Positions 4,963-41,614 of a stretch of 64,000 nucleotides of DNA are shown in pieces (within the stretch, counting starts at the first letter, position 1; each line of letters opens with the position of its first letter). The position numbers were made by a program, and so were the translations under genes. The stretch lies in the NCBI RefSeq assembly GCF_014644295.1, contig NZ_BMKK01000013.1:1-64000 (forward strand). Direction: 5' to 3'. Under the pieces are notes generated by a model. It ran no database searches. It worked only from the letters and a program-made list of their open reading frames with translations, and had not been told where the DNA came from. This stretch comes from Emticicia aquatilis. Lineage in GTDB: Bacteria > Bacteroidota > Bacteroidia > Cytophagales > Spirosomataceae.

Positions 4963-6972
4963 ATGACAACTGATACTTATACACAAACGTCGATGTTTGA
5001 TTTGTGGCGTCAGAATCATTATTTATACAAAGATAAATATACTTCGCACCAGACGTCGTACATCGAGAATCTGTTGCCCGAAATTGCCGTTCAGCTAAAT
5101 GTTTATGATATTATAGACATTCTTCAACGTCGATTTGGCAATGATATTATCCAAAGGGCATTAGACCCCAGTCGTGGTATCGAAAGCCCCGTAAGCTATC
5201 ACCAAGATAGCCAATGGCTGAAGAAGTCGAATATGGTGGGCATCAATGTCCGTACCATCAACAACTTTTTCAATGTCGTCAAATACGCACTAACGATTCC
5301 AAAATCACAAGATTCGATACATTTATTGCCTATTTGGGAGCCAGGAGTAGTTGGCAGCCTCTATGGCATGACAACTTTCAATATAAACCCTGAGTTTTAC
5401 AGTCAAGAATTGGCTACTGCTATCCCGTCGCTTGATTCGGTCGAGAAACAACTCAAATTTGTGGTGAATATCTTGCATGCAATGGGCAAGAGCGTAGGCA
5501 TGGACGTGATTCCACACACCGACCGTTTTTCGGAAATGGTCATTGCATATCCTCGCTTTTTTGAGTGGGTACGCAGGGTTGGAGGAAGAATTACGAGCAA
5601 TTCAGAAACAATTTATAGAGAGGTCGAAGAAATTATTTGGCATTATTTAGTACGTAATGGCACAGCCAACGGAACACCGATTTCTTACTCAAAAAACACG
5701 CTGTTTTCGCCCGAAATTCCAATTTTGAGCGATGAACAACGATTGGAAATAATATTCGGTTATAAAAACGATTTTCAAGGCCGTCTTCGCCGCCGCATTG
5801 AGTTAATGCACGAACTAATTTACCAAGGCTACGAAACCCTTCCGATGACAATGGCACCGCCGTACCGTGGGCTACACATCAATCCCGAAGAATTTGTGAT
5901 TGATGAAAACGGAAACCGTTGGTACACTTATGAATTTGATGAGCCACAGGCAATGTCGAGGGTTTTTGGCCCTTTGGCACGCTATAAGTTTTTTCACTCA
6001 AAAGATGATAACGCTAATTGGATATTAGATTTTGAGAACCCAAATAAATATGCGTGGGAGTATTTCTGTCAAAAAGTGTATGAATGTCAGAAAACCTATA
6101 ATTTAGATTTTATGCGGGGCGATATGGCTCATGTTCAACCCCGACCAGATGGCGTACCAGCCAGACCCGATGAATATTATGACCCACTGATGGCCGTAAA
6201 GCATTATGTGCAGAAACAAGGCGTCAAGCATTTTGCATTTTTTGCTGAAACTTTTTTAGTTGACCCTGATTTTATGGGATATGGCGATGAAAATGACCAC
6301 TTGGAGGCCATTGATGCCGATTCTACACTCGGAGATTTACAGTCTTCGGTGGTAGGTTCTCCCGAGTTTATGCAGAAATTTGTGAAGTACAATCAATTGC
6401 TTCGCACTCGTAAATTCGCACCAAATTTTACGGTTATGACAGCTGATAAAGATGACCCTCGTTTTGATGAGTTTTATCGAACTGCCAATTATCTGCGTTT
6501 GTTTGTTTCGTTGTTTTTGACTGATATGCCAAGCTATGTAGGTTTGGGCTTTGAAACACGCAATATGCACCTTGAAAGAGGCAAAAATGAAGAATATACG
6601 AAACTATACGTTTTTGCAATTCGAGATGATAATGACCGAGATAAAGTAACTCACGGGCCATTTATTTGGGGTAAAAATCACTATCAGTTTCATTTGTTTC
6701 AGCAAATGCACCAACTGGCTGAAAATATTTGGGAGGAAATCAAAGGCCGTTCGGTGAAATGGCTTTTAGAACCAACCGAAGAGCAAAAATTGATGATTTG
6801 GACACTGCAAGATAATCCGAAGTACGTTTTTGTGGTAAACTTCGACCCATATAATGGTATTGACGAAAATCTTTTGCGAGAAAAGACCTTCAATCATCCA
6901 CTCAACCAAATCTTTACGACTGGGCATTATAGCCAGCAGCATGAGTGCAGGGTTTATCGTTTGAACGATTGA
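4963..6972 (+). CDS. GH13-like (alpha-amylase superfamily) protein
   Basis: A 669-residue protein without signal peptide. The middle part looks like a TIM barrel of the alpha-amylase clan: LLPIWEPG then GSLYGMTTF, followed by HAMGKSVGMDVIPHTDR (region I-like, D and H around residues 180-187), DFMRGDM (region II-like, Asp387 as candidate nucleophile) and HFAFFAETF (region III-like, Glu429 as candidate acid). The expected region IV (NHD-type) is not evident; the corresponding segment reads LFLTDMPSYVGLGFETRN. Residues 560-669 may form a beta-sandwich. The cytoplasmic location suggests work on an internal glucan or sugar phosphate. It has its own promoter and terminators on both sides. The substrate is unknown, and the loss of region IV makes true amylase activity uncertain. 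Confidence 0.6.
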   Translation: MTTDTYTQTSMFDLWRQNHYLYKDKYTSHQTSYIENLLPEIAVQLNVYDIIDILQRRFGNDIIQRALDPSRGIESPVSYHQDSQWLKKSNMVGINVRTINNFFNVVKYALTIPKSQDSIHLLPIWEPGVVGSLYGMTTFNINPEFYSQELATAIPSLDSVEKQLKFVVNILHAMGKSVGMDVIPHTDRFSEMVIAYPRFFEWVRRVGGRITSNSETIYREVEEIIWHYLVRNGTANGTPISYSKNTLFSPEIPILSDEQRLEIIFGYKNDFQGRLRRRIELMHELIYQGYETLPMTMAPPYRGLHINPEEFVIDENGNRWYTYEFDEPQAMSRVFGPLARYKFFHSKDDNANWILDFENPNKYAWEYFCQKVYECQKTYNLDFMRGDMAHVQPRPDGVPARPDEYYDPLMAVKHYVQKQGVKHFAFFAETFLVDPDFMGYGDENDHLEAIDADSTLGDLQSSVVGSPEFMQKFVKYNQLLRTRKFAPNFTVMTADKDDPRFDEFYRTANYLRLFVSLFLTDMPSYVGLGFETRNMHLERGKNEEYTKLYVFAIRDDNDRDKVTHGPFIWGKNHYQFHLFQQMHQLAENIWEEIKGRSVKWLLEPTEEQKLMIWTLQDNPKYVFVVNFDPYNGIDENLLREKTFNHPLNQIFTTGHYSQQHECRVYRLND

Positions 6973-6994: not shown

Positions 6995-7029
6995 AAAGTC
7001 TCATACCTACTCGATAGGTATGAGACTTT
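6995..7029. terminator. Palindromic bidirectional terminator, left copy
   Basis: AAAGTCTCATACCTA (6995-7009) and TAGGTATGAGACTTT (7015-7029) form a perfect 15-base stem with a five-base CTCGA loop. It lies 22 bases after the stop codon of the GH13-like gene. The A and T at the stem ends suit termination in either direction. Confidence 0.6.
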
Positions 7030-7092
7030 AATTATACTACGACCATGGATTTCGGAAAACTCAAAGATATTTCAGATGTAGATTTTACACTT
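6995..7092. repeat. 98-bp direct repeat, left copy
   Basis: Bases 6995-7092 match 7727-7824 at 97 of 98 positions; the only difference is T7011 versus C7743. The unit holds a 15-base perfect hairpin, the short leader and the first 16 codons of the DUF72 gene. The left copy ends exactly where the sequence departs into the DUF6934-like cassette. Confidence 0.95.
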
Positions 7093-7113
7093 TTGTTAAG
7101 CATTCATCATTAA
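7045..7113 (+). pseudogene. Truncated 5' remnant of the DUF72 gene
   Basis: The ATG at 7045 starts a copy of the first 16 codons of the DUF72 gene (MDFGKLKDISDVDFTL). At 7093 the sequence changes to unrelated DNA and a stop follows after six more codons (7111-7113), giving a 22-residue peptide. The complete gene begins again at 7777. This is the scar of an insertion or tandem duplication and is unlikely to have a function of its own, although it would be translated just before the DUF6934-like gene. Confidence 0.85.
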
Positions 7114-7120
7114 AAAGTAT

Positions 7121-7564
7121 ATGGAAGAAAAGTATTACGATTTTGAACGCCCTATTTCAGAAATTCGTTATAACTTTAAAAGCATTAGTCAAGAAAAAGA
7201 GGTTTCTAAGCGAGTAATTTTTACTACTTCAGATTATCAAAACTTTTATAACTTAGCTTTAGTTGATGTTTTTGATGATGGTAGCATCTCTGATATTTCT
7301 GAAACTCGAAATAAAGATATGATAATGGTTTTAGCGACAGTTATCAAAATTATTGAAGAGTTTTTGGATAAATATCCAGATGTATTTCTAATATTTCAGG
7401 GTAGTGATAAAAGACGGCAACGTCTATATCGACTAATTATCAGTCGGGAAATGCCTAATATTGAAAAAAAGTTTATAGTTTTAGGTGGATTTGAAAACTC
7501 ACAGCCTGAACACTTTCGACTTAATCAAGAATATGATTATTTCATTATTTCAAAAATAAGATGA
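7121..7564 (+). CDS. DUF6934-like protein of an inserted cassette
   Basis: A 147-residue soluble protein with no signal peptide or membrane segment. From memory it matches the DUF6934 family of Bacteroidota: YNLALVD near residue 45, then a negatively charged turn, MVLATVIKIIEEFLDKYP (helix, about 71-89), FQGSDKRRQRLYRLII (about 94-108) and a C-terminal F-x-L-NQEYDYFIISK strand. The basic RRQRLYR segment is well conserved in this family and could be a nucleic-acid or nucleotide contact. The family function is unknown. Its stop codon overlaps the start of a 47-residue ORF (ATGA). Both genes sit between 98-bp direct repeats, which implies recent arrival. A toxin-antitoxin-type pair is possible but not shown. 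Confidence 0.75.
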   Translation: MEEKYYDFERPISEIRYNFKSISQEKEVSKRVIFTTSDYQNFYNLALVDVFDDGSISDISETRNKDMIMVLATVIKIIEEFLDKYPDVFLIFQGSDKRRQRLYRLIISREMPNIEKKFIVLGGFENSQPEHFRLNQEYDYFIISKIR

Positions 7565-7704
7565 AAAACAAGCCAATATCTGCAACACAAAAGACTGGTT
7601 ATCAAGTAGTTGATGATAAGCTACGAGCGGCTAATTCATATTTAAAAACAATAGATATGGATAAATTGCATGAAACTGTGCGACAAGGTAAAAAAGAAAA
7701 ATAA
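7561..7704 (+). CDS. Small 47-residue partner of the DUF6934-like gene
   Basis: This ORF starts at the ATG that overlaps the stop of the preceding gene (ATGA at 7561-7564), a classic sign of coupled translation. The product is basic at both ends and carries a central helix-prone stretch (DDKLRAANSYLKTIDMDKLHETV). No cysteine or signal peptide is present. I recognise no family. Its position as the second gene of a two-gene cassette suggests a partner, perhaps an antidote or regulator, of the DUF6934-like protein; that is inference only. It ends 22 bases before the right-hand 98-bp repeat. Confidence 0.6.
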   Translation: MKNKPISATQKTGYQVVDDKLRAANSYLKTIDMDKLHETVRQGKKEK

Positions 7705-7726
7705 CTTCTTGAATTAATTTTATTCT

Positions 7727-7824
7727 AAAGTCTCATACCTACCCGATAGGTATGAGACTTTAATTATACTACGACCATGGATTTCGGAAAACTCAAAGAT
7801 ATTTCAGATGTAGATTTTACACTT
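7727..7824. repeat. 98-bp direct repeat, right copy
   Basis: This is the right-hand copy of the repeat at 6995-7092 and is continuous with the intact DUF72 gene. Its hairpin (7727-7761) has the same 15-base stem, with loop CCCGA instead of CTCGA. Confidence 0.95.
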
Positions 7825-8688
7825 CCGCCAGATAATCCATTAACTGCACAAACCCTTGCGGCAGTATCTCCGAAAGTTTCTCAGCCCGATTTATATTTTG
7901 GTCCACCGATTTGGGCGAATAAAAGCTGGGCGGGAAAGATTTACCCATCAAATGCCAAGGATAAAGATTTTTTACATTACTATACTCGCCAGTTTAACAC
8001 CATTGAACTGAATGTAACGCATTACCAAATTCCGACCGAAGAAACGATTATCCGTTGGAAAGAATCGGCCGCTGATGGTTTTAAGTTTTGCCCGAAATTT
8101 CCGCAAGTAATTAGCCATGACCGTCAACTGATTGGCTGTGAGTTTCTTACCGAACAATTCTGCACGGCGGTTTTGGGCTTGGAAGAGCATTTGGGAATGA
8201 CTTTCTTGCAGCTTTCACCGATGTTCGACCCACGAAGGCTGAAAAGTTTAGAAAATTACTTAAAATCTTTACCGCCAAATTTTCCTGTTTCGGTTGAGTT
8301 TCGTCATTCTGATTGGTTTAAAGATGCCAAAGTTTGGGCAAATACCTGTGCAATGCTCACCGAAATGAAAGTTGGAACGGTGATTTCAGATGTTTCTGGC
8401 CGACGAGATGTACTTCATGCCACACTTACGACGCCAAAACTTACGCTTCGGTTTGTAGGCAACGAGCTTCACCCGACAGATTACACTCGTATCAATGCGT
8501 GGTGTGAACGTATAAAAACTTGGCTTGATATGGGTTTAGAAAGTGCTTATATTTTTGTGCATTGTGGCGATAATGAATTTGCTCCCGAACTCACAAAATA
8601 TTGGATAAATAAGATTAATGCGAAAACAGGCCTAAATCTGCAAGAACCTAAAATAATTCCACAGGTTGTGCAGGGTAGTTTGTTCTGA
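7777..8688 (+). CDS. DUF72 domain protein (YecE-like)
   Basis: A 303-residue protein of the DUF72/YecE family, a TIM-barrel fold of unknown activity that some authors relate to cofactor or nucleotide chemistry. Visible family segments are LYFGPPIWANKSWAGKIYP near residue 47, HYYTRQFNTIELNVTHYQIPT, WKESAADGFKFCPKFPQVISHDRQL, FLQLSPMFDPRRL and FPVSVEFRHSDWF. The first 16 codons are duplicated upstream at 7045, so the gene was cut by, or restored after, an insertion event and is now complete. The leader between hairpin and ATG is only 15 bases in both copies, so its promoter may lie within or upstream of the hairpin. Confidence 0.88.
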   Translation: MDFGKLKDISDVDFTLPPDNPLTAQTLAAVSPKVSQPDLYFGPPIWANKSWAGKIYPSNAKDKDFLHYYTRQFNTIELNVTHYQIPTEETIIRWKESAADGFKFCPKFPQVISHDRQLIGCEFLTEQFCTAVLGLEEHLGMTFLQLSPMFDPRRLKSLENYLKSLPPNFPVSVEFRHSDWFKDAKVWANTCAMLTEMKVGTVISDVSGRRDVLHATLTTPKLTLRFVGNELHPTDYTRINAWCERIKTWLDMGLESAYIFVHCGDNEFAPELTKYWINKINAKTGLNLQEPKIIPQVVQGSLF

Positions 8689-8794
8689 AAAAAATGTTGC
8701 ATTATATTGTTCAAGTCCATAAATTGCACGAAAATCCGAAAATGTATCCACTTAACAACAAAGATTTTTTTTCCTGACAAATTTAGCGAACAAA

Positions 8795-8826
8795 ATAAGC
8801 CCGACGTTTCGTTGGGTTTTATTTTT
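8795..8826 (+). terminator. Terminator after the DUF72 gene
   Basis: AAGCCCGACG pairs with CGTTGGGTTT (two G-T pairs) around a TTT loop, and TTATTTTTT follows. Confidence 0.65.
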
Positions 8827-8885
8827 TAAATAAAACGCCTCATTTTTTATAAACATCAAGAAACAAAAAACACTTAATTGAAGCT

Positions 8886-9467
8886 ATGCAAGCGATATTA
8901 GTTTACTGTGGAGCAAATCCTGGAACAAAACCTATTTATAAAGAAACTGCCGAGAAACTGGGCAAAGTTTTAGCTGAAAATAATATCCGTCTTATCTACG
9001 GCGGAGGAAGCGTTGGATTGATGGGAATTGTGGCCGACTCGGTTTTGGCAAATAACGGACAAGTTACGGGTATTATTCCGCACTTTTTAGACCGTATGGA
9101 AGTTGGACATAAAAGCCTACCCGAAATGCACAAGGTAGAAACCATGCACGAACGTAAGGCTTTGATGGAAAAGCTCTGTGATGGCATTATTACATTGCCT
9201 GGAGGTTATGGTAGCATGGACGAACTTTTCGAGATTTTGTCATGGTCTCAGTTGGGACTTCACCAAAAGCCAGTGGGTTTGCTTAATGTCAATGGTTTTT
9301 ATGACCACCTCTTAAAGCAATTAGATGTAATGGTTGAAGAAGGTTTCTTGAAAGCCGAAAATCGTGCATTGGTAATTGTGGCCGATAATATTGAAGAATT
9401 AATGGAGAAAATGTCGAGTTTTAAAGCATCTTACCACGAAAAATGGTTGAATAGAGAGCAGATTTGA
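8886..9467 (+). CDS. LOG-family protein (TIGR00730), nucleotide phosphoribohydrolase
   Basis: A 193-residue Rossmann-fold protein of the LOG/TIGR00730 family. Known members cleave the N-glycosidic bond of cytokinin or purine nucleoside 5'-monophosphates to give the base and ribose 5-phosphate. The N-terminal VYCGANPG and RLIYGGGSVGLMG segments bind the phosphate, and the signature PGGYGSMDE is at residues 105-113 (the usual form is PGGxGTxxE, so Thr is Ser here), with the catalytic arginine and glutamate region MHERKALM just before it. Length is typical of the family. It lies directly before murF but with a separate putative promoter in between. Confidence 0.88.
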   Translation: MQAILVYCGANPGTKPIYKETAEKLGKVLAENNIRLIYGGGSVGLMGIVADSVLANNGQVTGIIPHFLDRMEVGHKSLPEMHKVETMHERKALMEKLCDGIITLPGGYGSMDELFEILSWSQLGLHQKPVGLLNVNGFYDHLLKQLDVMVEEGFLKAENRALVIVADNIEELMEKMSSFKASYHEKWLNREQI

Positions 9468-9527: not shown

Positions 9528-10808
9528 ATGTCTATTGCCGAATTATATCAAAAATTTAAAGTCAGCAACGGAATTTCGACCGATACCCGAAAAATCAACG
9601 AAGGAGTAATGTTTTTTGCTCTGAAAGGCGATAAATTCAATGCTAACTCGTTTGCTCATGAAGCACTCAGCAAAGGTGCAAAATACGTAGTGATTGACGA
9701 GGCCGAATATGCTACCGACGAACGTTGCATTTTGGTTGGTGATGTGCTTTATACGCTTCAGAAATTGGCTAATTACCACCGTCAACAGCTCAGTATTCCG
9801 TTTGTGGGCATGACTGGCTCGAATGGAAAAACCACTTCTAAAGAGTTAGTTGCGGCAGTTTTATCAAAGAAATTCAAGACTTATTATACAAAAGGAAATC
9901 TCAATAATCATATTGGTGTGCCGCTTACATTGCTTGGAATTGACGAAAGCTACGAAATTGCGGTAATCGAAATGGGAGCAAATCACCAAGGCGAAATCAG
10001 AGATTTATCTAATATTTGTGAACCGACGCACGGCTTCATCACGAATGTTGGAAAGGCTCACTTAGAAGGTTTTGGAGGTGTTGAAGGGGTGAAAAAAGGC
10101 AAAGGAGAATTGTATGATTTTTTAGCAAAATCAGGCGGAACAGTTTTCGTAAGTGCCAAAAGTACGGCATTGCTCGAAATGGCCGCTCAGCGGAAATTCA
10201 AAGAGAGAATCGACTATTTAGCTGATGATGAGGTTGTTATGTTGCAAGATTCACCAGTGGTTAGATTCTCCGCAAATGGCTCTCAATACGAAACGCATTT
10301 GCCAGGCTCATATAATTTTGAAAATATTGCCGCAGCTTTGGCCATTGGAAAATACTTTGGTGTGTCACCTGAATTGGCAAATGAGGCTGTTTCTGAATAC
10401 AATCCTGATAATAATCGCTCTCAGATTGTAGAAAAAGGTACAAATAGCATTTTGCTCGATGCCTACAATGCTAATCCATCGTCAATGTCGGCTTCAATTC
10501 AGAATTTTATCAATCTGAAAACCGATAAAAAGAAAGTCGTGATTTTGGGAGATATGTTTGAATTAGGCGAAGAAGGACCCGCCGAACACCGTCTGATTGG
10601 CGAATTAGTAGCCAAAGGAAACTTTGATTTGGTAGTTTTATTCGGCGAATTAATGACAAATGCCCTCGAGTTTTTACCGAATGCTTTCTATTTTTCTGAT
10701 AAGTTTTCGTTACATAACTGGCTGATTGATAAACAATTAAAAGATTCTTATGTATTGATAAAAGGTTCGAGAGGAGTTAGTTTGGAGACTGTTGTGCAGT
10801 TTTTGTAG
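9528..10808 (+). CDS. murF: UDP-N-acetylmuramoyl-tripeptide--D-alanyl-D-alanine ligase
   Basis: A 426-residue Mur ligase that adds D-Ala-D-Ala to UDP-MurNAc-tripeptide in the cytoplasm, the last soluble step of the peptidoglycan precursor pathway. The N-terminal substrate domain holds STDTRKINEGVMFFALKGDKFNA. The ATP loop TGSNGKTTS is at residues 96-104. The central domain has YTKGNLNNHIGVPLTLL, IEMGANHQGEI and TNVGKAHLEGFGG, and the C-terminal domain has DAYNANPSSM and LGDMFELG, which is the MurF pattern. Length is normal for Bacteroidota. A hairpin follows the stop codon, shared with the convergent methyltransferase gene. Confidence 0.96.
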   Translation: MSIAELYQKFKVSNGISTDTRKINEGVMFFALKGDKFNANSFAHEALSKGAKYVVIDEAEYATDERCILVGDVLYTLQKLANYHRQQLSIPFVGMTGSNGKTTSKELVAAVLSKKFKTYYTKGNLNNHIGVPLTLLGIDESYEIAVIEMGANHQGEIRDLSNICEPTHGFITNVGKAHLEGFGGVEGVKKGKGELYDFLAKSGGTVFVSAKSTALLEMAAQRKFKERIDYLADDEVVMLQDSPVVRFSANGSQYETHLPGSYNFENIAAALAIGKYFGVSPELANEAVSEYNPDNNRSQIVEKGTNSILLDAYNANPSSMSASIQNFINLKTDKKKVVILGDMFELGEEGPAEHRLIGELVAKGNFDLVVLFGELMTNALEFLPNAFYFSDKFSLHNWLIDKQLKDSYVLIKGSRGVSLETVVQFL

Positions 10809-10825
10809 CAATCAAAATATATTGA

Positions 10826-10860
10826 GAGGGGATATTTTAACAGAATATCCTCCTTTTTTA
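10826..10860. terminator. Terminator between murF and the methyltransferase gene
   Basis: GAGGGGATATT (10826-10836) pairs with AATATCCTCC (10844-10853), followed by six T. It stands between two convergent genes and may serve both. Confidence 0.75.
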
Positions 10861-10864
10861 TGTC

Positions 10865-11650
10865 TTATGATTTTTTCTGAAAAGTGACGCACAAGTGCTT
10901 ATGCAAAAGCAAAGTTTGATTTGTATTAAGAGAATGTTGCTCTGCCAAAACTTCTTTTTCTATCGAATTTGACGTTTTTCGAGAAAGGCGTTTAAGCGTG
11001 CGAAACGAACGAAGATGAAAAAAAATGCCCAAAAATAGATACGAAATCAAAGAACTTATGCTTAGTTGGTTGGCATGAACCTTCTGTAATTTTAAGCCTG
11101 CTAAACCTGCCAGTGTTCGTAGCCTTTGGGCGGTGCAAAGATATACTCGACCATTATAAATATGGCTATCATCGTAGCCAATTACACTTGCTTCGTTCGA
11201 CGAAAACATATCGCTTCGCTCTGCTTCTACCCACAAATTTCCGAGGCGACCGTTAAGGCTGCTGTTATTGGGCTTTGTTACGATTAAAATACCGTTGGGC
11301 TTGAGTATTCTTGAAAGTTCTTGTAGTAGCGAAGTCTGATTAGGAATATGTTCGATTGTTTCCATCAAAAGAACATAATCAGCTGAATTAGCTTCGATGG
11401 GTAGTTTTTGGTTTAAATCAATGGGCTGGCAAGTTAGTGAATCGCTTTTGAAAATATCGGGATACATATCAAAAGCCTTTACGACGGCACCAGCATTGTG
11501 CCACAAATTAGCAACATAGCCCGAACCAGCCGAAACATCAATCACAGTTTTTCCTTTTACCTCGTTTTCTTCAACAAAACGATGAATAAACTCCAAAGCA
11601 GCTCCTTTTGAGTGTGGTACTTGTTTGATTTGTGATTTATATTTCGACAT
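10865..11650 (-). CDS. Class I SAM-dependent methyltransferase
   Basis: A 261-residue protein with the methyltransferase core: motif I VIDVSAGSGYVA (residues about 38-49), motif II region VKAFDMYPD, a LLMETIEHIPN segment (motif IV, with the common EHI/EHL pattern) and LKPNGILIVTKPN (motif post-V). After the core, residues 160-261 hold a hydrophobic stretch (SISSLISYLFLGIFFHL) that could attach to the membrane. The target is unknown. It lies in a run with a GT2 glycosyltransferase and a DegT-type aminotransferase on the same strand, so a role in a surface glycan is likely but inferred. Confidence 0.82.
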   Translation of the reverse strand: MSKYKSQIKQVPHSKGAALEFIHRFVEENEVKGKTVIDVSAGSGYVANLWHNAGAVVKAFDMYPDIFKSDSLTCQPIDLNQKLPIEANSADYVLLMETIEHIPNQTSLLQELSRILKPNGILIVTKPNNSSLNGRLGNLWVEAERSDMFSSNEASVIGYDDSHIYNGRVYLCTAQRLRTLAGLAGLKLQKVHANQLSISSLISYLFLGIFFHLRSFRTLKRLSRKTSNSIEKEVLAEQHSLNTNQTLLLHKHLCVTFQKKS

Positions 11651-11767
11651 TAGAGGGCGTTGTTGTTATAGTTTCATATTGTTGCAAATTGTTAGTTTTT
11701 GTTTTAATAAGAGGTTTTCAATGCCTTTCTCAACAATCTGCAACAAAACAAACCCTTTAAACAAATT

Positions 11768-12673
11768 TTAAGATATATCAATCGGACGACTTTTAAACTT
11801 AACCTTCCATCTATCAATTTGTTTTTTTAAGCGAAGTGTAAAGTTTTCTTCGGGGTCGGGTAGTTTACCCAAAAACTTTGTTCCGATTTTTAGATAATTT
11901 TTGAAAAACGTATTGCTACTCATACCCCACTTCAAAATAAACTCTGTACGGCCGTCATTGCGTTTTACTCGTCCTGTACTTCGGCTGGCAAAATGATAAA
12001 CCCTGCTTTTTCCCAAACCTTTGTAATATCTTACACCATAGTGCCAGAGTTTTATCATAAAATCGGGGTCGCTGTACATCCCTGGGAAAAACTCAACGCT
12101 TAACCCACCAACCGCCCGATAAACAAACGTTGGTAAAACCATCGGATACCATTGGCTACCATTCCAGTCTTCTTTTGGGTAAGTGGCATATTCTGCTAAA
12201 AATTTCTCTTCATCAAATTCCGAAGGGTGCGTGCCATAGTTTTTATCAGCTATCACACAGGCATTTCCTTTATCGAAACCCTCAATCATTGTTCCGCTGA
12301 TGCACCATTTATCATCTGTTTGTTTGGCTACTTCTTCAAACAAGTAGAAGTCCCAATCGGGGCATAAGTACATGTCATCATCAATGAAAACTAAGTATTC
12401 GGCAGTAGCCAAATGCGAAGCGGCATTGAAACCATAGCAAACACCCGAATTTTGCGAGCTTTTTGTATAGCTAATATCACCTTGAGCAATTACCCAATCT
12501 TCTGAGCCATCGTTCCCTTCATTTACGTGAACAATAATTTGGTGCTTGTATCGACTATTTTTCTTGATACTATTGACCACACATTTCAAATAGTCAATAT
12601 TATTCCACGATGGAATGAGTATAGAAAAAATAGGAGAGTAGTCTAAGGCTACTTTTTTATGAATAAAATCCAC
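11768..12673 (-). CDS. Family 2 glycosyltransferase
   Basis: A 301-residue GT-A fold enzyme. The N-terminal FSILIPSWNNIDYLKCVVNSI and the later YLVFIDDDMYLCPDWDF (metal-binding DDD, around residues 100) are typical of GT2. The C-terminal part (GMYSDPDFMIKLWHYGVRYYKGLGKSRVYH) holds the acceptor side with the ED/DPD-like base. The reading frame begins with GTG at 12673, since no ATG is well placed upstream of the conserved region. It should transfer a sugar from a nucleotide-sugar donor to a glycan or lipid acceptor. It sits between the methyltransferase and aminotransferase genes. Donor and acceptor cannot be told. Confidence 0.88.
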   Translation of the reverse strand: MDFIHKKVALDYSPIFSILIPSWNNIDYLKCVVNSIKKNSRYKHQIIVHVNEGNDGSEDWVIAQGDISYTKSSQNSGVCYGFNAASHLATAEYLVFIDDDMYLCPDWDFYLFEEVAKQTDDKWCISGTMIEGFDKGNACVIADKNYGTHPSEFDEEKFLAEYATYPKEDWNGSQWYPMVLPTFVYRAVGGLSVEFFPGMYSDPDFMIKLWHYGVRYYKGLGKSRVYHFASRSTGRVKRNDGRTEFILKWGMSSNTFFKNYLKIGTKFLGKLPDPEENFTLRLKKQIDRWKVKFKSRPIDIS

Positions 12674-12736
12674 TTACAATAATTGATAATTGATAATGAA
12701 AAATGGAGAAGTATTAGGTGATAAAGATTGGGAAAA

Positions 12737-12775
12737 GTAGAATTGATGATTAGTATTCATAATTATCAATTCTAC
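12737..12775. repeat. Intergenic inverted repeat
   Basis: GTAGAATTGAT (12737-12747) and ATCAATTCTAC (12765-12775) form a perfect 11-base stem. The neighbouring bases 12680-12700 repeat the motif AATTGATAAT. It lies between the aminotransferase and glycosyltransferase genes and has no clear T tract. Confidence 0.6.
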
Positions 12776-12792
12776 ATTCTCAATTAAAGATA

Positions 12793-13941
12793 TCACCATC
12801 CTTTGCGTAAGACATAAGCAATGTATGCCACATCTTCTTCGGTTACTTTGGCGTGAAGTGGTAATACTAAATAACGTTCTTCGATGGCATCCATCTTAGG
12901 GAATTGTCCCGGTGTACGGCCACCAAAAATGCTATATTTATCGTTTCTGTAATGTACTTGACCTGATTCGATGCCGTGTTCACGAAGGTGTTTCATCAAA
13001 TTTTCACGGTCGTCAACTTCGGCAGTTAATAGCCATGCTGCGTGTTCACGGTCGGTGTATTCGCTTCCGATTACTCTGATTCCTCTAATATCTTTCAATA
13101 AATCGCAATAGAGACGATAGAGTTTCTGACGATGAGCCAAATGGTCGTCAAACTCATCGATTGCTGCAAGGCCGATACTGGCAGCAATATCGGTCATTTG
13201 GTATTTATAACCAACTTCAGTAATATCGTTTTCCCAAATGCCTTTTTGTTTGCTGCTACGGTCAATGCCGAACCAACGTAAACGTTTGGCTTTTTCTACC
13301 AAAGATTTATCTTTTACGACCAACATTCCGCCATCACCAGTGGTAATGTGCTTGATTGCTTGAAACGAAAACATCGTAAAATCGCTTTGGCTACCGATAT
13401 ACTCGCCTTTGTATTTTGCACCAACGGCATGAGCTGCATCTTCAATGATAGCAATATTGTGTTTACGGCCAAGTTCCCAAAGTTCGTCCATGTCACATGG
13501 CAAACCGCCATAATGCACACAAACAATCGCTTTGGTTTTTGGTGTAATGAGTTGGGCTACGTGCTTCACATCAATATTGAGGTTGGCGTCAATATCGGCA
13601 AAAACAATTTTTACTCCCATATACAAAAATGGGATGTTGGTAGCTGTACAAGTAAATACTGGGGCAATCACCTCATCGCCTTCTTTGAGGCCAGCCAGTA
13701 AATACGACAAATGTAGGGCGTCAGTTCCTGAGCCAACCGCAAGACTTTTGCAAGGAGCGGTAAATTTCTGCTCAAAACGTTGTTCAAATTCATCAACTCT
13801 CGGACCTTGACCAATCCAACGAGTATTCAGAACTTCGCTTACGTTTAAAGCAGCTTTGGCTGGAATATTTGGGTGAAACAGAACGATACCGTCACTTGTA
13901 TCCATGACAGGAAACTCGTTCATGGGCTTTTCAGCAGTCAT
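12793..13941 (-). CDS. DegT/DnrJ/EryC1/StrS-family aminotransferase
   Basis: A 382-residue PLP enzyme of the sugar-aminotransferase family. I use the ATG at 13941; the longer frame would start with TTG. Visible features: AVGSGTDALHLSY (phosphate binding, about residues 65-77), IIEDAAHAVGAKYKG (the Asp that contacts PLP), FSFQAIKHITTGDGGML (the Lys that forms the internal aldimine, in QAIKH) and YRNDKYSIFGG near the C-terminus. The family makes amino sugars from nucleotide keto-sugars. It is the first gene of a three-gene minus-strand run with GT2 and methyltransferase genes, so modified surface polysaccharide synthesis is the likely setting. Confidence 0.92.
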   Translation of the reverse strand: MTAEKPMNEFPVMDTSDGIVLFHPNIPAKAALNVSEVLNTRWIGQGPRVDEFEQRFEQKFTAPCKSLAVGSGTDALHLSYLLAGLKEGDEVIAPVFTCTATNIPFLYMGVKIVFADIDANLNIDVKHVAQLITPKTKAIVCVHYGGLPCDMDELWELGRKHNIAIIEDAAHAVGAKYKGEYIGSQSDFTMFSFQAIKHITTGDGGMLVVKDKSLVEKAKRLRWFGIDRSSKQKGIWENDITEVGYKYQMTDIAASIGLAAIDEFDDHLAHRQKLYRLYCDLLKDIRGIRVIGSEYTDREHAAWLLTAEVDDRENLMKHLREHGIESGQVHYRNDKYSIFGGRTPGQFPKMDAIEERYLVLPLHAKVTEEDVAYIAYVLRKGW

Positions 13942-14364
13942 AAACAATAGTTAAGTTTTAGGTTAGATTGACCAGGTTTTTCTGGAAAATTTATTTTTCA
14001 CGTTTAAATATACCAAGATAGTTTTAATGCTATACATGGACGTGAACAAAATTAATATTATAAATTTTAATATTCTACAAAAAAAGGATTTTTATCATAA
14101 ATTTTAATCTTTTAATCTATACATTTGGTGGGTTAGTATGCTGTTTTATGAGTAGCGAAATGCTAAATTATAGTATTAATGACTCAAATTAAAAGAGTGA
14201 AAAAGGCTATTTTCGAAGAAAAATTGTCTAAATAATAGACTTTTGTAATCAAGATTCTGGTTTGTGAAATAAGGTTGGAAGCACCTCAGAAATATTAGAT
14301 TTGGTGTGGTTGAGGCACATAAATATTTCAACAAAATCCTATTTATTGTCCGTACCTTTGTGTC
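13942..14364. other. Gene-free stretch between divergent genes
   Basis: About 420 bases, very AT-rich, between the minus-strand aminotransferase and the plus-strand helicase. It must hold two divergent promoters. The only recognisable element is TACCTTTG at 14353-14360, four bases before the helicase ATG. No coding potential or strong hairpin was seen. Confidence 0.5.
14353..14360 (+). promoter_or_regulatory. Possible -7 element next to the helicase start
   Basis: TACCTTTG fits the Bacteroidota -7 consensus TAnnTTTG and ends four bases before the ATG. No good TTG is found at the expected upstream distance, so the call is weak. If used, the mRNA would be nearly leaderless. Confidence 0.3.
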
Positions 14365-15693
14365 ATGGATATTCATCAACAACATTCGCAAATATTGGCC
14401 AATCTTGGCATTGAGAAACTAAATCCGATGCAAGTTTCGGCACAAAAAGCCATCACCGCTCGCAATAGCGATACGCTTTTATTGGCACCAACGGGTTCGG
14501 GTAAAACGTTGGGTTTTTTATTGCCTGTTTTGCAGTTACTCAAAGCTGACCAAGCTAAAGTACAATGCTTGATACTGGCACCTTCTCGTGAATTGGCTTT
14601 GCAGATTGAGCAAGTTTGGAGGAAAATGTCAACGGGTTTTAAAGTAAATGTTTGTTATGGCGGTCATCCAATGGCTACCGAAATACAGAATCTATCAACC
14701 CCGCCCGCTTTATTAATAGGCACTCCTGGCCGAATTGCCGACCATATTACTCGTAACACTTTCGCACTTGATGGCATCACGACTTTGGTGCTGGATGAAT
14801 TCGATAAATCCTTGGATTTGGGGTTTCATGACCAAATGTCTTTTATTATCGAAAATTTACCGAATCTTAATAAAAGAGTATTGGTCTCGGCTACGGCGGG
14901 TATTGAAATTCCAGAGTTTACGGGTTTGACCGAACCAAAGGTTTTAGATTTTTTACCTGAGAAAAATACCGAAAATGAACAACTGACGATGAAGTTGGTG
15001 ATTTCGGACGAAAAAGATAAACTTGATACGGTTTTTGATTTGGTTTGCTCACTTAATTCAGAAGCTGCTTTAATTTTTTGTAATCATCGAGATGCCGCCG
15101 AGCGAACAAGCGAATTTTTGAACCAAAAAGGAATTGTTGCTACATTTTATCACGGTGGAATGGAGCAAGACGCCCGTGAACGTGCTTTGATTAGATTCAG
15201 AAACGGCAGTGTAAATTATTTGGTCACGACCGACTTGGCGGCTCGTGGGCTGGATATTCCCGAAATGAAACACGTGATTCATTATCATTTGCCACTTCAA
15301 GCACACGAATTTGTGCATCGTAATGGTCGTACGGCACGTATGCACGCTTCGGGAACTTCGTATCTGATTTTTAGTATAGATGAAGAACGCCCAGCTTATG
15401 TTGACAAAAACTTGGAGGAATTAGTGCTTTCAAAACGTTATCCATTGCCGCAGCTTCCTGAATATCAAACACTTTACATTAGTGGAGGAAAGAAAAATAA
15501 ACTCAATAAAATTGATATTGTAGGCTTCCTATCACAAAAAGGCCAACTCGAAAAAGGTGATTTAGGGCTTATCGAAGTGAAAGATTTTACATCGTTTGCA
15601 GCGGTGAAACGCACAAAAGTAAAGGCACTCCTACAACTTATCAGAGAAGAAAAGATGAAAGGTAAGAAATATAAAATTGAGATTGCGAGGTAG
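14365..15693 (+). CDS. DEAD-box RNA helicase, DbpA-like
   Basis: A 442-residue helicase with two RecA domains and a C-terminal RNA-binding domain. Motif Q region NLGIEKLNPMQ, motif I APTGSGKT (residues 41-48), motif Ib PGR, motif II DEFD (144-147) instead of DEAD, motif III SAT (175-177), motif V TDLAARGLD and motif VI HRNGRTAR (318-325, usual form HRxGRxGR). Residues about 375-442 match the DbpA-type domain that binds 23S rRNA hairpin 92, with the characteristic KIDIVGFLSQKG and IGLIEVKDF-like segments. By family it should remodel large-subunit rRNA during ribosome assembly. The DEFD and HRNGRTAR variants are changes at core positions but keep the Asp-Glu pair. Confidence 0.9.
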   Translation: MDIHQQHSQILANLGIEKLNPMQVSAQKAITARNSDTLLLAPTGSGKTLGFLLPVLQLLKADQAKVQCLILAPSRELALQIEQVWRKMSTGFKVNVCYGGHPMATEIQNLSTPPALLIGTPGRIADHITRNTFALDGITTLVLDEFDKSLDLGFHDQMSFIIENLPNLNKRVLVSATAGIEIPEFTGLTEPKVLDFLPEKNTENEQLTMKLVISDEKDKLDTVFDLVCSLNSEAALIFCNHRDAAERTSEFLNQKGIVATFYHGGMEQDARERALIRFRNGSVNYLVTTDLAARGLDIPEMKHVIHYHLPLQAHEFVHRNGRTARMHASGTSYLIFSIDEERPAYVDKNLEELVLSKRYPLPQLPEYQTLYISGGKKNKLNKIDIVGFLSQKGQLEKGDLGLIEVKDFTSFAAVKRTKVKALLQLIREEKMKGKKYKIEIAR

Positions 15694-15756
15694 GTTTTTA
15701 GTAGTCGACAGTCAACGGTAGTGTCGGTAATTACTCAGTTTGTATTTTTTTGAAAG

Positions 15757-15795
15757 CAAAAGCGGCCAAAACTTAGACTTTTGACCGCTTTTTGT
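15757..15795. terminator. Terminator between the helicase and the secreted repeat protein
   Basis: AGCGGCCAAAA and TTTTGACCGCT pair with one mismatch, with A-rich and T-rich flanks on the two sides (CTTTTTG after the right arm). The genes on both sides converge here. Copies of a GTCGACAGTCAAC / GACTGTTGACTA motif flank it at 15701-15716 and 15836-15850. Confidence 0.65.
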
Positions 15796-15847
15796 ATTTT
15801 GGATAAGTTATCCACGTTTCTGTGGACTACTGACTATGGACTGTTGA

Positions 15848-17005
15848 CTAATTTCTTCTGCCTCTGCCTTCGCTACGGCCGCCGCCATCGTTTGAAGGTC
15901 TTTCGCTGCGTTCGGTACGGCCAGCTTCTGAGCTACGTTCGCCACGACCACGATTGCTTTCTGATGTATTTGGCATACTACGTTCGTTACGGCTCGACTC
16001 TGCTCCACTGCCACGACCGTAATTATCCGAACGACTTTCGCCTGTATTTGGGCGGTTGTTTCTCGAATCGTTACCGTTATCACGTGGGCTGCGTTCAGTA
16101 GGAGTTACTGGAGAGTTTTCGCTTCCACCTCTCGAACCACGCTCATTGTTGTTCCAATCTGGGCGACCGCTGTCACGTGGGCTGCGTTCAGTAGGAGTTA
16201 CTGGAGAGTTTTCGCTTCCACTTCTTGAACCACGCTCATTGTTGTTCCAATCTGGGCGACTGCTACGGCCGTTGTCGTTGCTTCTTGAGCCTCGCTCGTT
16301 GTTATTCCAGTCGGGGCGGGAATTACGATTATTGTCATAGCCATCTCTCGATGAGCGACCGTTGTTACTCCAATCTCTTGATGTACGGTTGTCGTAGCGA
16401 CCGCCTTCATAACTACGAGAATTATTATTGCTGCGATAACGGCTACGCTCGCTGTAATATTCACGGCCAACACGATTTCGGTCGTTTCTGTACCAACCAT
16501 TATAGTTCGGGCGAGGCGTATATCCTAAACGAATGTTACCAAATCCACGGCGGTCGAAACGGTAGAAATCAAAACCACCTTGATAGTACCAACGAGGATA
16601 TCCACGAAGGTCGTTCCAAGCCATATCAAATCCGTAGAATCTGCGGTCGAAATCATATAGTTCGATGCCAACTTGACGGTTGAGATATGCCACATCGTCC
16701 CAGATTTCTTGCTGCTCCCAACGATTGAAAATTCCATCTGATAAGTAAGCATATTCTTTACGCTCCACGTCCTCTAAACGACGATACAGACGATTGGCTT
16801 CATTACGAGTGATGAGTCCATTTTGAATACCATTGCTGATACGCACTCTGATGTCCCAGTGCCAGTCAAATTCATCATCGTAGTAGTATCGGTCATCATC
16901 ATAGCCGTAACCATTACCATAGTTATCATAAACACCACCATATTGTGCATTTGCCGAAAGAATAGTAGCGAATACCATCATTGCGGCTATCATGAAATTT
17001 CTCAT
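15848..17005 (-). CDS. Secreted low-complexity repeat protein (Arg/Asn/Ser/Gly-rich)
   Basis: A 385-residue protein with a signal peptide (MRNFMIAAMMVFATILSANA). Residues 21-165 are Tyr/Asp/Arg-rich and include a segment with ITRNEANRLYRRLEDVERKEYAYLSDG, which looks like a small helical domain. Residues 170-385 are low complexity with units of the type RPDWNNNERGSRS, two of them as full 31-residue tandem copies, and a Gly/Arg tail (GGGRSEGRGRRN). No enzyme motif is present. A structural or surface-matrix role, or binding to nucleic acid or polysaccharide through the Arg-rich tail, is possible. The repeats are nearly identical in DNA and should be prone to length changes. Confidence 0.75.
   Translation of the reverse strand: MRNFMIAAMMVFATILSANAQYGGVYDNYGNGYGYDDDRYYYDDEFDWHWDIRVRISNGIQNGLITRNEANRLYRRLEDVERKEYAYLSDGIFNRWEQQEIWDDVAYLNRQVGIELYDFDRRFYGFDMAWNDLRGYPRWYYQGGFDFYRFDRRGFGNIRLGYTPRPNYNGWYRNDRNRVGREYYSERSRYRSNNNSRSYEGGRYDNRTSRDWSNNGRSSRDGYDNNRNSRPDWNNNERGSRSNDNGRSSRPDWNNNERGSRSGSENSPVTPTERSPRDSGRPDWNNNERGSRGGSENSPVTPTERSPRDNGNDSRNNRPNTGESRSDNYGRGSGAESSRNERSMPNTSESNRGRGERSSEAGRTERSERPSNDGGGRSEGRGRRN
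16080..16265. repeat. 93-bp tandem repeat inside the secreted protein gene
   Basis: Two near-identical 93-base units start at TCACGTGGG at 16080 and 16173 and encode 31 residues each (RPDWNNNERGSR plus a SENSPVTPTERSPRD segment). Shorter relatives of the first half continue to about 16380. Confidence 0.85.
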
Positions 17006-17273
17006 CGTCTTATATAATTAATTGTTAATTTATACTTTAGATGCAGAAAGGTATCAAAAGGTTTGCTACTGATTTGTTAATTGATTGTTAATGGGTTTTG
17101 TCTCATTGTAAATAGTTGATTATAAGTTTATTAAATAAATTTATTAATGATTTTTTTGTAGTATTGTAGGACTGGTTTTTAACCTATCACCAGTGCAAAA
17201 TCTATTTTTAAACATAGGCTATCTAACAGACTAAAAACCTGCCTTACTTTTCAATCTTATTTACAATTTTGTG

Positions 17274-17281
17274 TATGTTTG
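17274..17281 (+). promoter_or_regulatory. Possible -7 element for the acylase gene
   Basis: TATGTTTG fits TAnnTTTG and lies 39 bases before the ATG at 17321. A -33 TTG at the right distance was not found, so this is tentative. Confidence 0.3.
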
Positions 17282-17320
17282 TTAAACCATTTTTCATCAC
17301 TCAAACGCATAAGCCTTTTT

Positions 17321-19516
17321 ATGAAATCTTTCTGTTTATTTTTTTTACTGTCATTTTCAATATTCGCCCAAAAAACTGTTTCGAGTAAATTTTCGACTGC
17401 CGAAATTGCTCGTTTTCAGCAGCAAGCTAAGCGAGTAAATATCATTCGAGACAATTGGGGGATTCCACATATTTATGGAAAATCAGATGCTGATGCGGTT
17501 TTTGGTTTGCTTTACGCTCAATGTGAAGACGATTTCAAGCGAGTAGAAATGAATTATATCGAAAAACTGGGCAGAATGTCAGAAATTAAAGGCGAAGCAA
17601 GCCTCTACGATGATTTACAAATAAAACTCTTAATTGACACGACCGACGCCATTGCTGACTACAATAAAGCCGAGCCGTGGATGAAAAAACTACTCAATGC
17701 CTACGCCGATGGTATCAATTTCTACTTATACACGCACCCCAACACAAAACCTGCTATGCTGACTCGCTTCAAGCCGTGGTATCCACTTTTGTGGACTGAT
17801 GGAAGTATCGGAGCAATCAGCACAGCAGATATTACAACGGCCGAATTGAAGAATTTTTATTCGGGCGATAAAGTTACTTACACTGCCGAACCCAAAGACC
17901 CCGAAAACCAAACTGGCTCGAACGGCTTTGCTTTTTCGCCTAAAATTACGGCTTCGGGAAATGCCATTTTGTATATAAATCCGCACGTAACGTTTTATTT
18001 CAGACCCGAAGTACAAGTAACCAGCGAAGAAGGTCTGAATGCTTACGGTGCAGTAACTTGGGGGCAAATGTTTGTTTATCAGGGGTTTAACGATTATTGT
18101 GGTTGGATGCATACTTCGTGCAATGTCGATGTGGCCGATGTTTATGCTGAAAAAATTACTAAAAAAGGAGATAAGTATTTCTATGAATACGATAAGCAAT
18201 TAAAGCCAGTTACCGAGAAAAAAATAAGTATCAGTTACAAAGATGGCGATGGACTGAAAACCAAGATTTTTACGACTTATGCTACGCATCACGGCCCAAT
18301 TATGGCGAAACGTAACGACCAATGGATTAGCCTAAAATCATATAATCGCTCAATGACAAGTCTGATTCAGAGTTGGAAACGAACAAAAGCCAAGGGTTTT
18401 GAAGACTACAAAAAAACTATGGATTTGCGAGCGAATACTTCAAACAGCACCGTTTTTGCCGATAACAAAGGAAATATTGCTTATTGGCACGGAAATTTTG
18501 TGCCTGTACGTGACCGCAAACTCAATTGGGCAAAGGTAATCGACGGAAGTACTTCGGCCACCGAATGGAAAGGCTTGCATACGGTTGATGAAACCGTTCA
18601 TGTCTATAATCCAGTGAATGGTTGGTTGCAAAACTGTAATTCTACACCCTTTTCGGCAGCGGGGGCGATGAGTCCGAAGAAAGCAGATTTTCCGCCATAC
18701 ATGGCACCCGATGGAGAGAATTTTAGAGGTGTAAATGCCGTGAAGGTTTTGGATAAAGAAAAAAGCTACACGATTGATAAAGTGATTGCGGCAGGCTATG
18801 ACACAAATTTGGCAGCTTTTGAGGTCTTGATTCCGTCGTTGATTAATGTTTTCGAGAAAAGCGTAAAACCTACTGATTCGCTTTATGCTGTTTTGAGTGA
18901 GCCAATTGCCGAGTTGAAAAAATGGAATTATCATTCATCAGAAACCTCAGTAGCTACCACTTTGGCAATTGAATGGGCGGGGAAATTGAGTACAACACTA
19001 CAAAAATTATACATTGATGAAGGTGAAGACGACCAAGTAGCCAATGTGAAAAGATTTGCGGCATCGGCCACACCTGAGCAGGTTTTACCGCCATTATTGA
19101 CTGTGGTGAATGATTTAAAGAAGAAATTTGGCAAATGGCAAATGCCGTGGGGCGAAATCAATCGTTATCAAAGAATTTCGTCAGATATTCAGCAAAAATA
19201 CGATGATGCACAGCCGAGCGTGCCAGTGGGTTTTGCTTCTGCATTGTGGGGAATGTTGCCTTCGTACAATAGCCGTTATTATCCATCTACTCAAAAACGC
19301 TACGGTGTAAGTGGCAATAGCTTTATTTGTGCCGTTGAATTTGGACCAAAAATCAAAGCAAAATCATTGTTGGCAGGTGGCGAAAGTGGCGACTCAAGCT
19401 CAAAACATTTCAACGACCAACTTGAAATGTACACTAAAGGCAAATTTAAAGATGTACTTTTTTACAAAGAAGATGTACTGAAAAATGCCGAGCGTACGTA
19501 TCATCCTGGTGAGTAA
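17321..19516 (+). CDS. Penicillin acylase-family (AHL acylase-like) hydrolase
   Basis: A 731-residue N-terminal nucleophile hydrolase. The ATG at 17321 begins a clean signal peptide (MKSFCLFFLLSFSIFAQ); the longer frame starts with TTG and overlaps a putative promoter. The precursor has an alpha chain (INIIRDNWGIPHIYGKSDADAVFGLLYAQCEDDF region), and the self-cleavage site lies before the nucleophile Ser200 in TGSNGFAFSP. The beta chain holds YINPHVTFYF and the Asn/Arg contacts. Family members hydrolyse amide bonds of beta-lactams, cyclic lipopeptides or acyl-homoserine lactones in the periplasm. The substrate cannot be fixed from sequence; AHL quenching is one option. A small conserved gene follows after 45 bases. 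Confidence 0.88.
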   Translation: MKSFCLFFLLSFSIFAQKTVSSKFSTAEIARFQQQAKRVNIIRDNWGIPHIYGKSDADAVFGLLYAQCEDDFKRVEMNYIEKLGRMSEIKGEASLYDDLQIKLLIDTTDAIADYNKAEPWMKKLLNAYADGINFYLYTHPNTKPAMLTRFKPWYPLLWTDGSIGAISTADITTAELKNFYSGDKVTYTAEPKDPENQTGSNGFAFSPKITASGNAILYINPHVTFYFRPEVQVTSEEGLNAYGAVTWGQMFVYQGFNDYCGWMHTSCNVDVADVYAEKITKKGDKYFYEYDKQLKPVTEKKISISYKDGDGLKTKIFTTYATHHGPIMAKRNDQWISLKSYNRSMTSLIQSWKRTKAKGFEDYKKTMDLRANTSNSTVFADNKGNIAYWHGNFVPVRDRKLNWAKVIDGSTSATEWKGLHTVDETVHVYNPVNGWLQNCNSTPFSAAGAMSPKKADFPPYMAPDGENFRGVNAVKVLDKEKSYTIDKVIAAGYDTNLAAFEVLIPSLINVFEKSVKPTDSLYAVLSEPIAELKKWNYHSSETSVATTLAIEWAGKLSTTLQKLYIDEGEDDQVANVKRFAASATPEQVLPPLLTVVNDLKKKFGKWQMPWGEINRYQRISSDIQQKYDDAQPSVPVGFASALWGMLPSYNSRYYPSTQKRYGVSGNSFICAVEFGPKIKAKSLLAGGESGDSSSKHFNDQLEMYTKGKFKDVLFYKEDVLKNAERTYHPGE

Positions 19517-41370: not shown

Positions 41371-41614
41371 AAATCATTTTATTTTTAAGCCTGAAAGGTT
41401 TTAAGCTCATTAACTAAGGGCATCGCCCTTAGAAAAGTGATGTACAAAAATGCAGAAAGCCCTGAAAGGGCGAAATAATTTTGGTAATATTTCGGCTTGT
41501 ATTGCCCTTTCTGGGCTTGGGTTTTAGTAGAGCAGATTTTCTAAATAGAGCGATGCTCTATCTTAATGTGTCAAGCCCTTTCAGGGCAATACTATTGTAT
41601 TTGTTTGACTTGCT
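41371..41614. repeat. Palindrome-rich 244-bp intergenic repeat, copy 1
   Basis: Contains four short palindromes: TAAGGGCATCGCCCTTA, GCCCTGAAAGGGC, its inverse GCCCTTTCTGGGC, and AGAGCGATGCTCT with AAGCCCTTTCAGGGC near the end. The copy is followed after 13 bases by copy 2 in the same orientation. Confidence 0.9.

Follow-up and report, generated by a model that had tools for sequence, protein, structure and literature searches.

A bracketed gene pair in Emticicia aquatilis

How does a small pair of genes come to lie between two nearly identical copies of the beginning of its neighbour? This question is raised by a locus of Emticicia aquatilis (Bacteroidota; Spirosomataceae) that falls within positions 1 to 64,000 of contig NZ_BMKK01000013.1 (assembly GCF_014644295.1), the stretch of 64,000 nucleotides (nt) analysed here and termed ‘the window’. 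A gene of the DUF6934 family and a 47-codon open reading frame (ORF) lie there upstream of a DUF72 gene, between direct repeats that each contain the DUF72 gene start. Judged from comparison with related genomes, the event is an insertion that duplicated 98 base pairs (bp) of native target.

Positions 6995-7092 and 7727-7824 form a direct repeat of 98 nt, identical at 97 of 98 positions and offset by 732. Each copy opens with a perfect hairpin (arms of 15-16 bp and a loop of 5 nt), and the sole mismatch between the copies, a T/C difference, falls within the hairpin loop. This pair is the longest direct repeat of the window in an exact-seed scan that covered copies up to 4 kb apart, and chance cannot account for a repeat of such length at 99% identity. 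The 634 bp enclosed between the copies (7093-7726) have a G+C content of 28.9%, compared with 38.8% for the window, and are its most AT-rich segment of that size (a scan in 50-bp steps found no 634-bp segment with equal or lower G+C). The features of the locus, all on the forward strand, are as follows.

4963..6972, forward: upstream gene of 669 codons, for which Pfam gave no match; the end of this gene forms the left border of the empty site
6995..7092, forward: left copy (R1) of the duplicated 98-bp target, present as one copy only in the loci of the four closest relatives
6995..7029, forward: terminator-like hairpin in R1; hairpin-like stretches lie at the same position in the closest relatives, by eye
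7045..7113, forward: truncated copy of the start of the DUF72 gene, as read in the sequence itself
7093..7726, forward: inserted DNA, 634 bp, G+C 28.9%
7121..7564, forward: DUF6934 gene (PF22028) of 147 codons; matched by Pfam at 2.1e-41, from position 2 to 144 of the 145-position model
7561..7704, forward: small partner ORF of 47 codons, whose start overlaps the DUF6934 stop (ATGA)
7727..7824, forward: right copy of the target duplication (R2)
7726..7762, forward: terminator-like hairpin in R2
7777..8688, forward: intact DUF72 gene (PF01904; Pfam match), the gene whose start is duplicated

The terminator-like hairpin and the first 16 DUF72 codons both belong to the duplicated 98 bp. R2 leads into an intact DUF72 gene of 303 codons, while in R1 the same 16 codons run on into six codons contributed by the insert and reach a stop that lies 7 bp upstream of the DUF6934 gene. 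No microhomology was seen by eye at the insert junctions in the window. A preliminary description, made from the letters of this DNA alone, had already reported repeats matching at 97 of 98 positions around 634 bp with a DUF6934-like gene and a 47-residue ORF, which the repeat scan and the Pfam match bear out; its further statement, that the hairpin and 16 codons lie inside the repeat and that the downstream gene remains whole, agrees with the intact DUF72 gene.

An empty site in relatives

The DUF72 protein was searched in 58 genomes (that of E. aquatilis included), of which 42 gave a match, and the comparison within the genus was made on the best loci of ten relatives (L006-L014 and L020). 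In nine of these ten loci (L006-L014) the end of the upstream gene adjoins the DUF72 gene, and in all ten the insert is without a match. The repeat region matches once in each of the four closest relatives (L006-L009), at 80-88% identity to R1, and the sequence to the left of R1 matches that of the relatives as well. With three loci that cover the window itself set aside, the insert has no nucleotide match in 31 other loci, 29 of them from relatives.

Because the relatives display an empty site with a single repeat region, the genome of the window gained 732 bp, corresponding to the insert and one native 98-bp copy. Since R1 and R2 are 99% alike, compared with 80-88% to the four closest relatives, the duplication took place within this species or was acquired from a very close strain; the closeness of the two copies fits either an origin in situ or acquisition from a conspecific strain. 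The preliminary description had suggested an arrival and had proposed a search of relatives for an empty site with one repeat copy, and both proved apt: such a site is found in the four closest relatives, and among the relatives searched neither a pair common to all of them nor an ancestral tandem duplication was seen.

An insert flanked by direct repeats might also be left by an ordinary transposon, or by a site-specific island with unusual ends. However, apart from the DUF6934 gene the 634 bp contain no ORF of the size of a transposase or an integrase, the sole inverted pair at the borders is the repeat’s own palindromic hairpin, which is native to the site, and the targets vary between the loci described below. 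Insertion sequences differ from the window insert in the same respects, since the latter has a 98-bp duplication, no terminal inverted repeats beyond the hairpin and no other sizeable ORF. An origin of this kind is therefore exceedingly improbable, and the earlier remark that the repeats do not fit a simple transposon footprint stands, given a 98-bp native duplication and no transposase-sized ORF.

Recurrence of the bracketing repeats

A gapped test, in which the stretch before each gene was aligned with the stretch after it, scores of 30 or more were counted and the expectation was derived from mismatched pairs of flanks, was applied to DUF6934 genes across Bacteroidota. Such scores were reached by 14 of 136 stretches in Spirosomataceae (0.6 expected), by 13 of 31 in Spirosoma (0.6 expected; these loci are partly those of the Spirosomataceae set) and by 29 of 70 loci elsewhere in Bacteroidota (0.2 expected; 80 loci were fetched, and eight duplicates as well as loci with short flanks were left out). 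The pool, with duplicates removed, comprised 220 stretches in 211 loci, and 218 of these, in 209 loci, had flanks long enough for the test. With wider windows, 49 of the 218 stretches were bracketed, against 1.6 expected, although many loci represent one site across several species and are not independent events; broken or tandem genes were counted more than once, yet the 49 matches correspond to 49 different loci. The remaining 169 of the 218 were without such a repeat.

Ordinary ORFs of the same loci, used as a control, yielded two matches in 134 with the narrower windows (L284 and L074) and three in 134 with the wider ones (L280 being added), of which that in L074 lies in an attC-like array. 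An ungapped control gave four matches in 224 (L093, L073 and L074 twice), and the two in L074 again belong to its attC-like array.

In 20 of the 49 bracketed loci three or more copies of the repeat are present, including array-type repeats and tandem units. The other 29 are two-copy loci, with repeats of 58-334 alignment columns (median 137) that overlap the start or end of a flanking ORF in 18 cases, where flanking ORFs were called mechanically at a length of at least 90 codons and some are not genes. The identity between copies ranges from 60 to 99% across the bracketed loci. The end of an upstream gene is doubled in L082 (a 131-bp repeat, 93% identical), and the start of a divergent gene in L073 (160 bp ungapped, 85%) and in L182; a gene start is likewise doubled in L280 and L276 of Chryseobacterium, and in L279 of Capnocytophaga it is the start of the next gene, as in the window, though the copy rule places this locus among the array-like ones. 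The end of one conserved gene, presumably a ribonucleotide reductase, is doubled in three loci of Spirosoma (L192, L160 and L206, the last of which also counts as array-like). By eye, no common core or shared junction sequence was apparent among the 35 of the 49 bracketed loci that were viewed side by side. The search of other genomes for DUF6934 pairs flanked by duplicated target ends, which the preliminary description had advised, thus found them repeatedly across Bacteroidota, and suggests a recurring, poorly understood route by which small selfish genes enter genomes.

Gain of cassettes within lineages

A second example of gain is provided by a pair of related loci. In L133 the end of an upstream gene, which we take to be aminopeptidase-like, is followed by one cassette, whereas in L082 that gene end occurs twice and a further cassette, with another DUF6934 gene, is present; within L082, only the 131-bp repeat, and not the cassettes, matches itself at the nucleotide level. 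In another case, L083 harbours three DUF6934 genes, of which one is partial, against a single gene in L101 and in L086, and about 200 bp of its flank are doubled at about 69% identity. At this Dyadobacter-group site (L083, L086, L101 and L155) the number of different DUF6934 genes varies between species from one to three, and cassettes are apparently gained and lost there.

Such loci bear upon two further explanations of the repeats. The first, which the preliminary description had offered as a tandem duplication followed by replacement, supposes that a gene end and a cassette were duplicated together and that one cassette was then lost or changed. L173, with two related DUF6934 copies and the same intervening repeat, fits this course of events, and in L073 the second repeat copy is followed by another small ORF. 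The window, however, has no second cassette or remnant, and its sequence left of R1 matches that of relatives; in L082, too, self-similarity is confined to the 131-bp repeat. Tandem duplication is consequently disfavoured for the window, where it must be considered very unlikely.

The second supposes homologous recombination on one side and illegitimate recombination on the other, with DNA taken up from a donor in which the cassette lay next to the same gene, so that the repeat would consist of a donor copy and a recipient copy. The frequent overlap of repeats with gene ends is in keeping with such exchanges, as is the spread of copy identities from 60 to 99%, which different donors would give. 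Yet a donor with the cassette at the same site would offer homology on both sides, for which a clean exchange is expected. The two copies resemble each other more than they resemble the relatives’ copies with which they were compared, both in the window and in L082; this explanation is unlikely.

Integron-like arrays

The preliminary description had also raised an ‘integron-like’ arrival. By the tests made, the window insertion is not an integron cassette: no site of the family’s attC-like array class occurs in all 64 kb of the window, the scan for classical attC gave none in the roughly 400 bp next to the DUF6934 gene, and no junction core was found.

Elsewhere, however, DUF6934 pairs do occur in arrays. 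In a Spirosoma genome (G014), at least eight attC-like sites lie beside a 390-codon tyrosine recombinase (L333, 7359-15880), and a DUF6934 pair (11215-11834) forms one cassette of the array. In L283 and L320, a DUF6934 unit of about 755 bp is held in common at 82% identity between unrelated flanks, bordered by GTTA on the left and by CAAC or TAAC near the right end. These three loci show that a DUF6934 pair can be an integron-type cassette. The proposal of an integron-like arrival is therefore not supported for the window, where neither site nor core was found, but has some ground in the cassettes in the arrays of other genomes and in an array in the E. aquatilis genome itself.

That array is found on other contigs of the same genome (C19 and C10). 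C19 (locus L367) carries a 390-codon tyrosine recombinase at 7855-9024 and sites at 10258-19170; the sites of C19 and C10 are foldable and attC-like (TCCAAC ... TGTAAAGG ... CCATCA ... GTTGGA) and lie between small unknown genes. The array-site motif occurs 22 times in this genome, always in one orientation; 53 of 222 genomes of the family contain it at least once, although some lone matches may be due to chance; a reversed control pattern gave a single match. Array sites were present in nine of 15 recombinase neighbourhoods fetched. A Spirosoma recombinase related to that of E. aquatilis has about 115 extra N-terminal residues and falls below the integron-integrase cut-off. The integrase family TIGR02249 has matches in all 222 genomes and none over its curated cut-off, and many of the matches listed break between model positions about 180 and 237. 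A literature search on Spirosoma and integrons listed no relevant report, and the E. aquatilis recombinase with its array of sites may represent an unnamed class of integron.

The presence of such systems leads to a rival explanation of more weight, in which a dedicated recombinase (for example, the integron-like tyrosine recombinase of this family) inserts cassettes at non-standard chromosomal sites, and an abnormal resolution of a one-strand intermediate produces the long duplication. The array in the same genome, the Spirosoma cassette beside a recombinase, and the unit of L283 and L320, with its GTTA left edge between unrelated flanks, are all points in its favour. So is an enrichment of motifs around DUF6934 genes: relative to control stretches, the density of GTTAGC is about fourfold just upstream, and that of GCTAAC about tenfold downstream. 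Integrons insert at a core motif, G^TT, which fits a few loci but not most of the 35 viewed, and the junctions of these 35 have no core in common. Moreover, a strict scan for classical attC in 212 loci gave one upstream and one downstream match, both in L074 (the reverse-complement control gave two), the window has no array-class site, and the GTTAAGC near the left end of its insert is a single 7-mer that was noticed post hoc. Taken together, a dedicated recombinase is a doubtful cause of the duplications.

According to excerpts of the published work, super-integrons carry toxin-antitoxin cassettes, and the DUF6934 pair resembles integron cassettes of this and other kinds in being a compact gene pair that is sometimes found in attC-like arrays. 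The window insertion differs from them in that neither an attachment site nor a junction core was found, and in that native target sequence was duplicated.

The DUF6934 gene and its partner

DUF6934 genes are present in 112 of the 222 family genomes, in up to 16 copies per genome. A small ORF follows 116 of 121 DUF6934 genes under a permissive rule, some of whose picks look spurious. The second DUF6934 copy of the E. aquatilis genome (contig C3) contains one stop and is without a bracketing repeat. An AlphaFold model of the window protein has a mean pLDDT of 91.9; a Foldseek search gave nothing at an E value of 0.001 or below, and the weaker rows were mostly GNAT acetyltransferases, with RNase E and ornithine decarboxylase among the unrelated proteins that also appeared. 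PADLOC and NCBIfam gave no meaningful match, and one DUF6934 query, taken from another genome, had no match in phage records.

When set against the family description of type II toxin-antitoxin systems, the DUF6934 gene and its partner are similar in consisting of two small overlapping genes (the ATGA overlap in the window), and in being multi-copy, patchy in distribution and found in arrays and on plasmids; they differ in that no known toxin or antitoxin family was matched in the searches made.

Two plasmids of Riemerella anatipestifer (L249 and L250) carry DUF6934 pairs among annotated resistance genes, with 852 bp around the pair common to both at 99%. The DUF6934 gene of L249 matches in two pieces, and the score of the bracketing repeat is 65 there and 27 in L250. 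A further DUF6934 match lies on a plasmid of Myroides albus.

Proposed capture with a long target duplication

An insertion, a native duplication of 98 bp, an intact DUF72 gene, recurrence at other loci and the lack of any visible junction specificity are what is observed. The explanation favoured here, to which a probability of roughly 60% is assigned, is that an addictive, toxin-antitoxin-like cassette was captured illegitimately with a long duplication of its target. The piece of DNA would have been captured between overlapping chromosome ends, and the capture step may have involved overlapping breaks on sister chromosomes, or else copying by template switching. The near-identical flanks that result should permit precise loss of the cassette through recombination; an addictive pair would punish that loss, and by this means the insertions might survive.

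To our knowledge, insertion with long target duplication has no established mechanism. Such insertion of restriction-modification genes was reportedly recognised in work of Nobusato (2000) and Furuta (2010). Available excerpts of several papers describe it for restriction-modification genes with duplications that are long and variable (PMC1643837, PMC3874152, PMC3031569, PMC4978471); in both systems, as far as those excerpts go, a small gene unit seems to move without a known mobile element and is recognised by the comparison of related genomes. Further points of likeness are an insert in one genome where the site is empty in relatives, and a target that is duplicated directly over about 100 bp, with variable length (98 bp in the window). 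There are also differences: the cargo in the window consists only of DUF6934 and the 47-codon ORF, and not of restriction-modification genes; the DUF6934 hosts are Bacteroidota, with many sites for one gene family; and one DUF6934 cassette can stack upon another (as in L082). The suggestion that the window might hold an ‘undescribed’ module was thus too strong, because this type of scar is already described for restriction-modification genes; what differs is its presence at many sites of one non-restriction pair. A search of the literature by titles and the opening lines of abstracts did not find long target duplication reported for toxin-antitoxin pairs.

These loci suggest that the scar may belong to small selfish cargo generally, and not to restriction enzymes. 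A duplication that is long enough to contain a gene end allows an insertion to spare both neighbours, and dozens of bracketed loci, with repeats that range from 99% to about 60% identity, constitute a natural series for the study of junctions, repeat length and loss. It could be imagined, speculatively, that Bacteroidota possess an unrecognised route that drops small selfish pairs at gene boundaries, doubling about 100-200 bp and restoring the gene start or end, with integron-like recombinase systems supplying the cassettes and possibly the first strand joining.

The same scar at toxin-antitoxin genes

For two toxin families, parE and hicA, the 30 best loci each were fetched, of which 27 were usable in either case (three parE loci with false scores at contig ends and three short hicA loci being excluded). 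The parE matches (scores of 24-57) represent one orthologous locus in several Spirosoma species (L219, L220, L222, L225 and L226), a parDE-type locus at which the last 25-61 bp of a conserved upstream gene are repeated behind the pair. Six hicA loci score 30 or more; four were inspected, and only L352 properly brackets the pair, with a repeat of 157 columns (125 identical) that encloses hicAB and takes in the end of the upstream gene. As hicAB and parDE-type loci can bear the scar, it is not limited to DUF6934, though it is rarer at the parE and hicA loci.

Other local direct repeats of the window lie between predicted genes (41383-41438 and 41532-41598, offset 257) and inside a predicted protein gene (16080-16167, offset 93).
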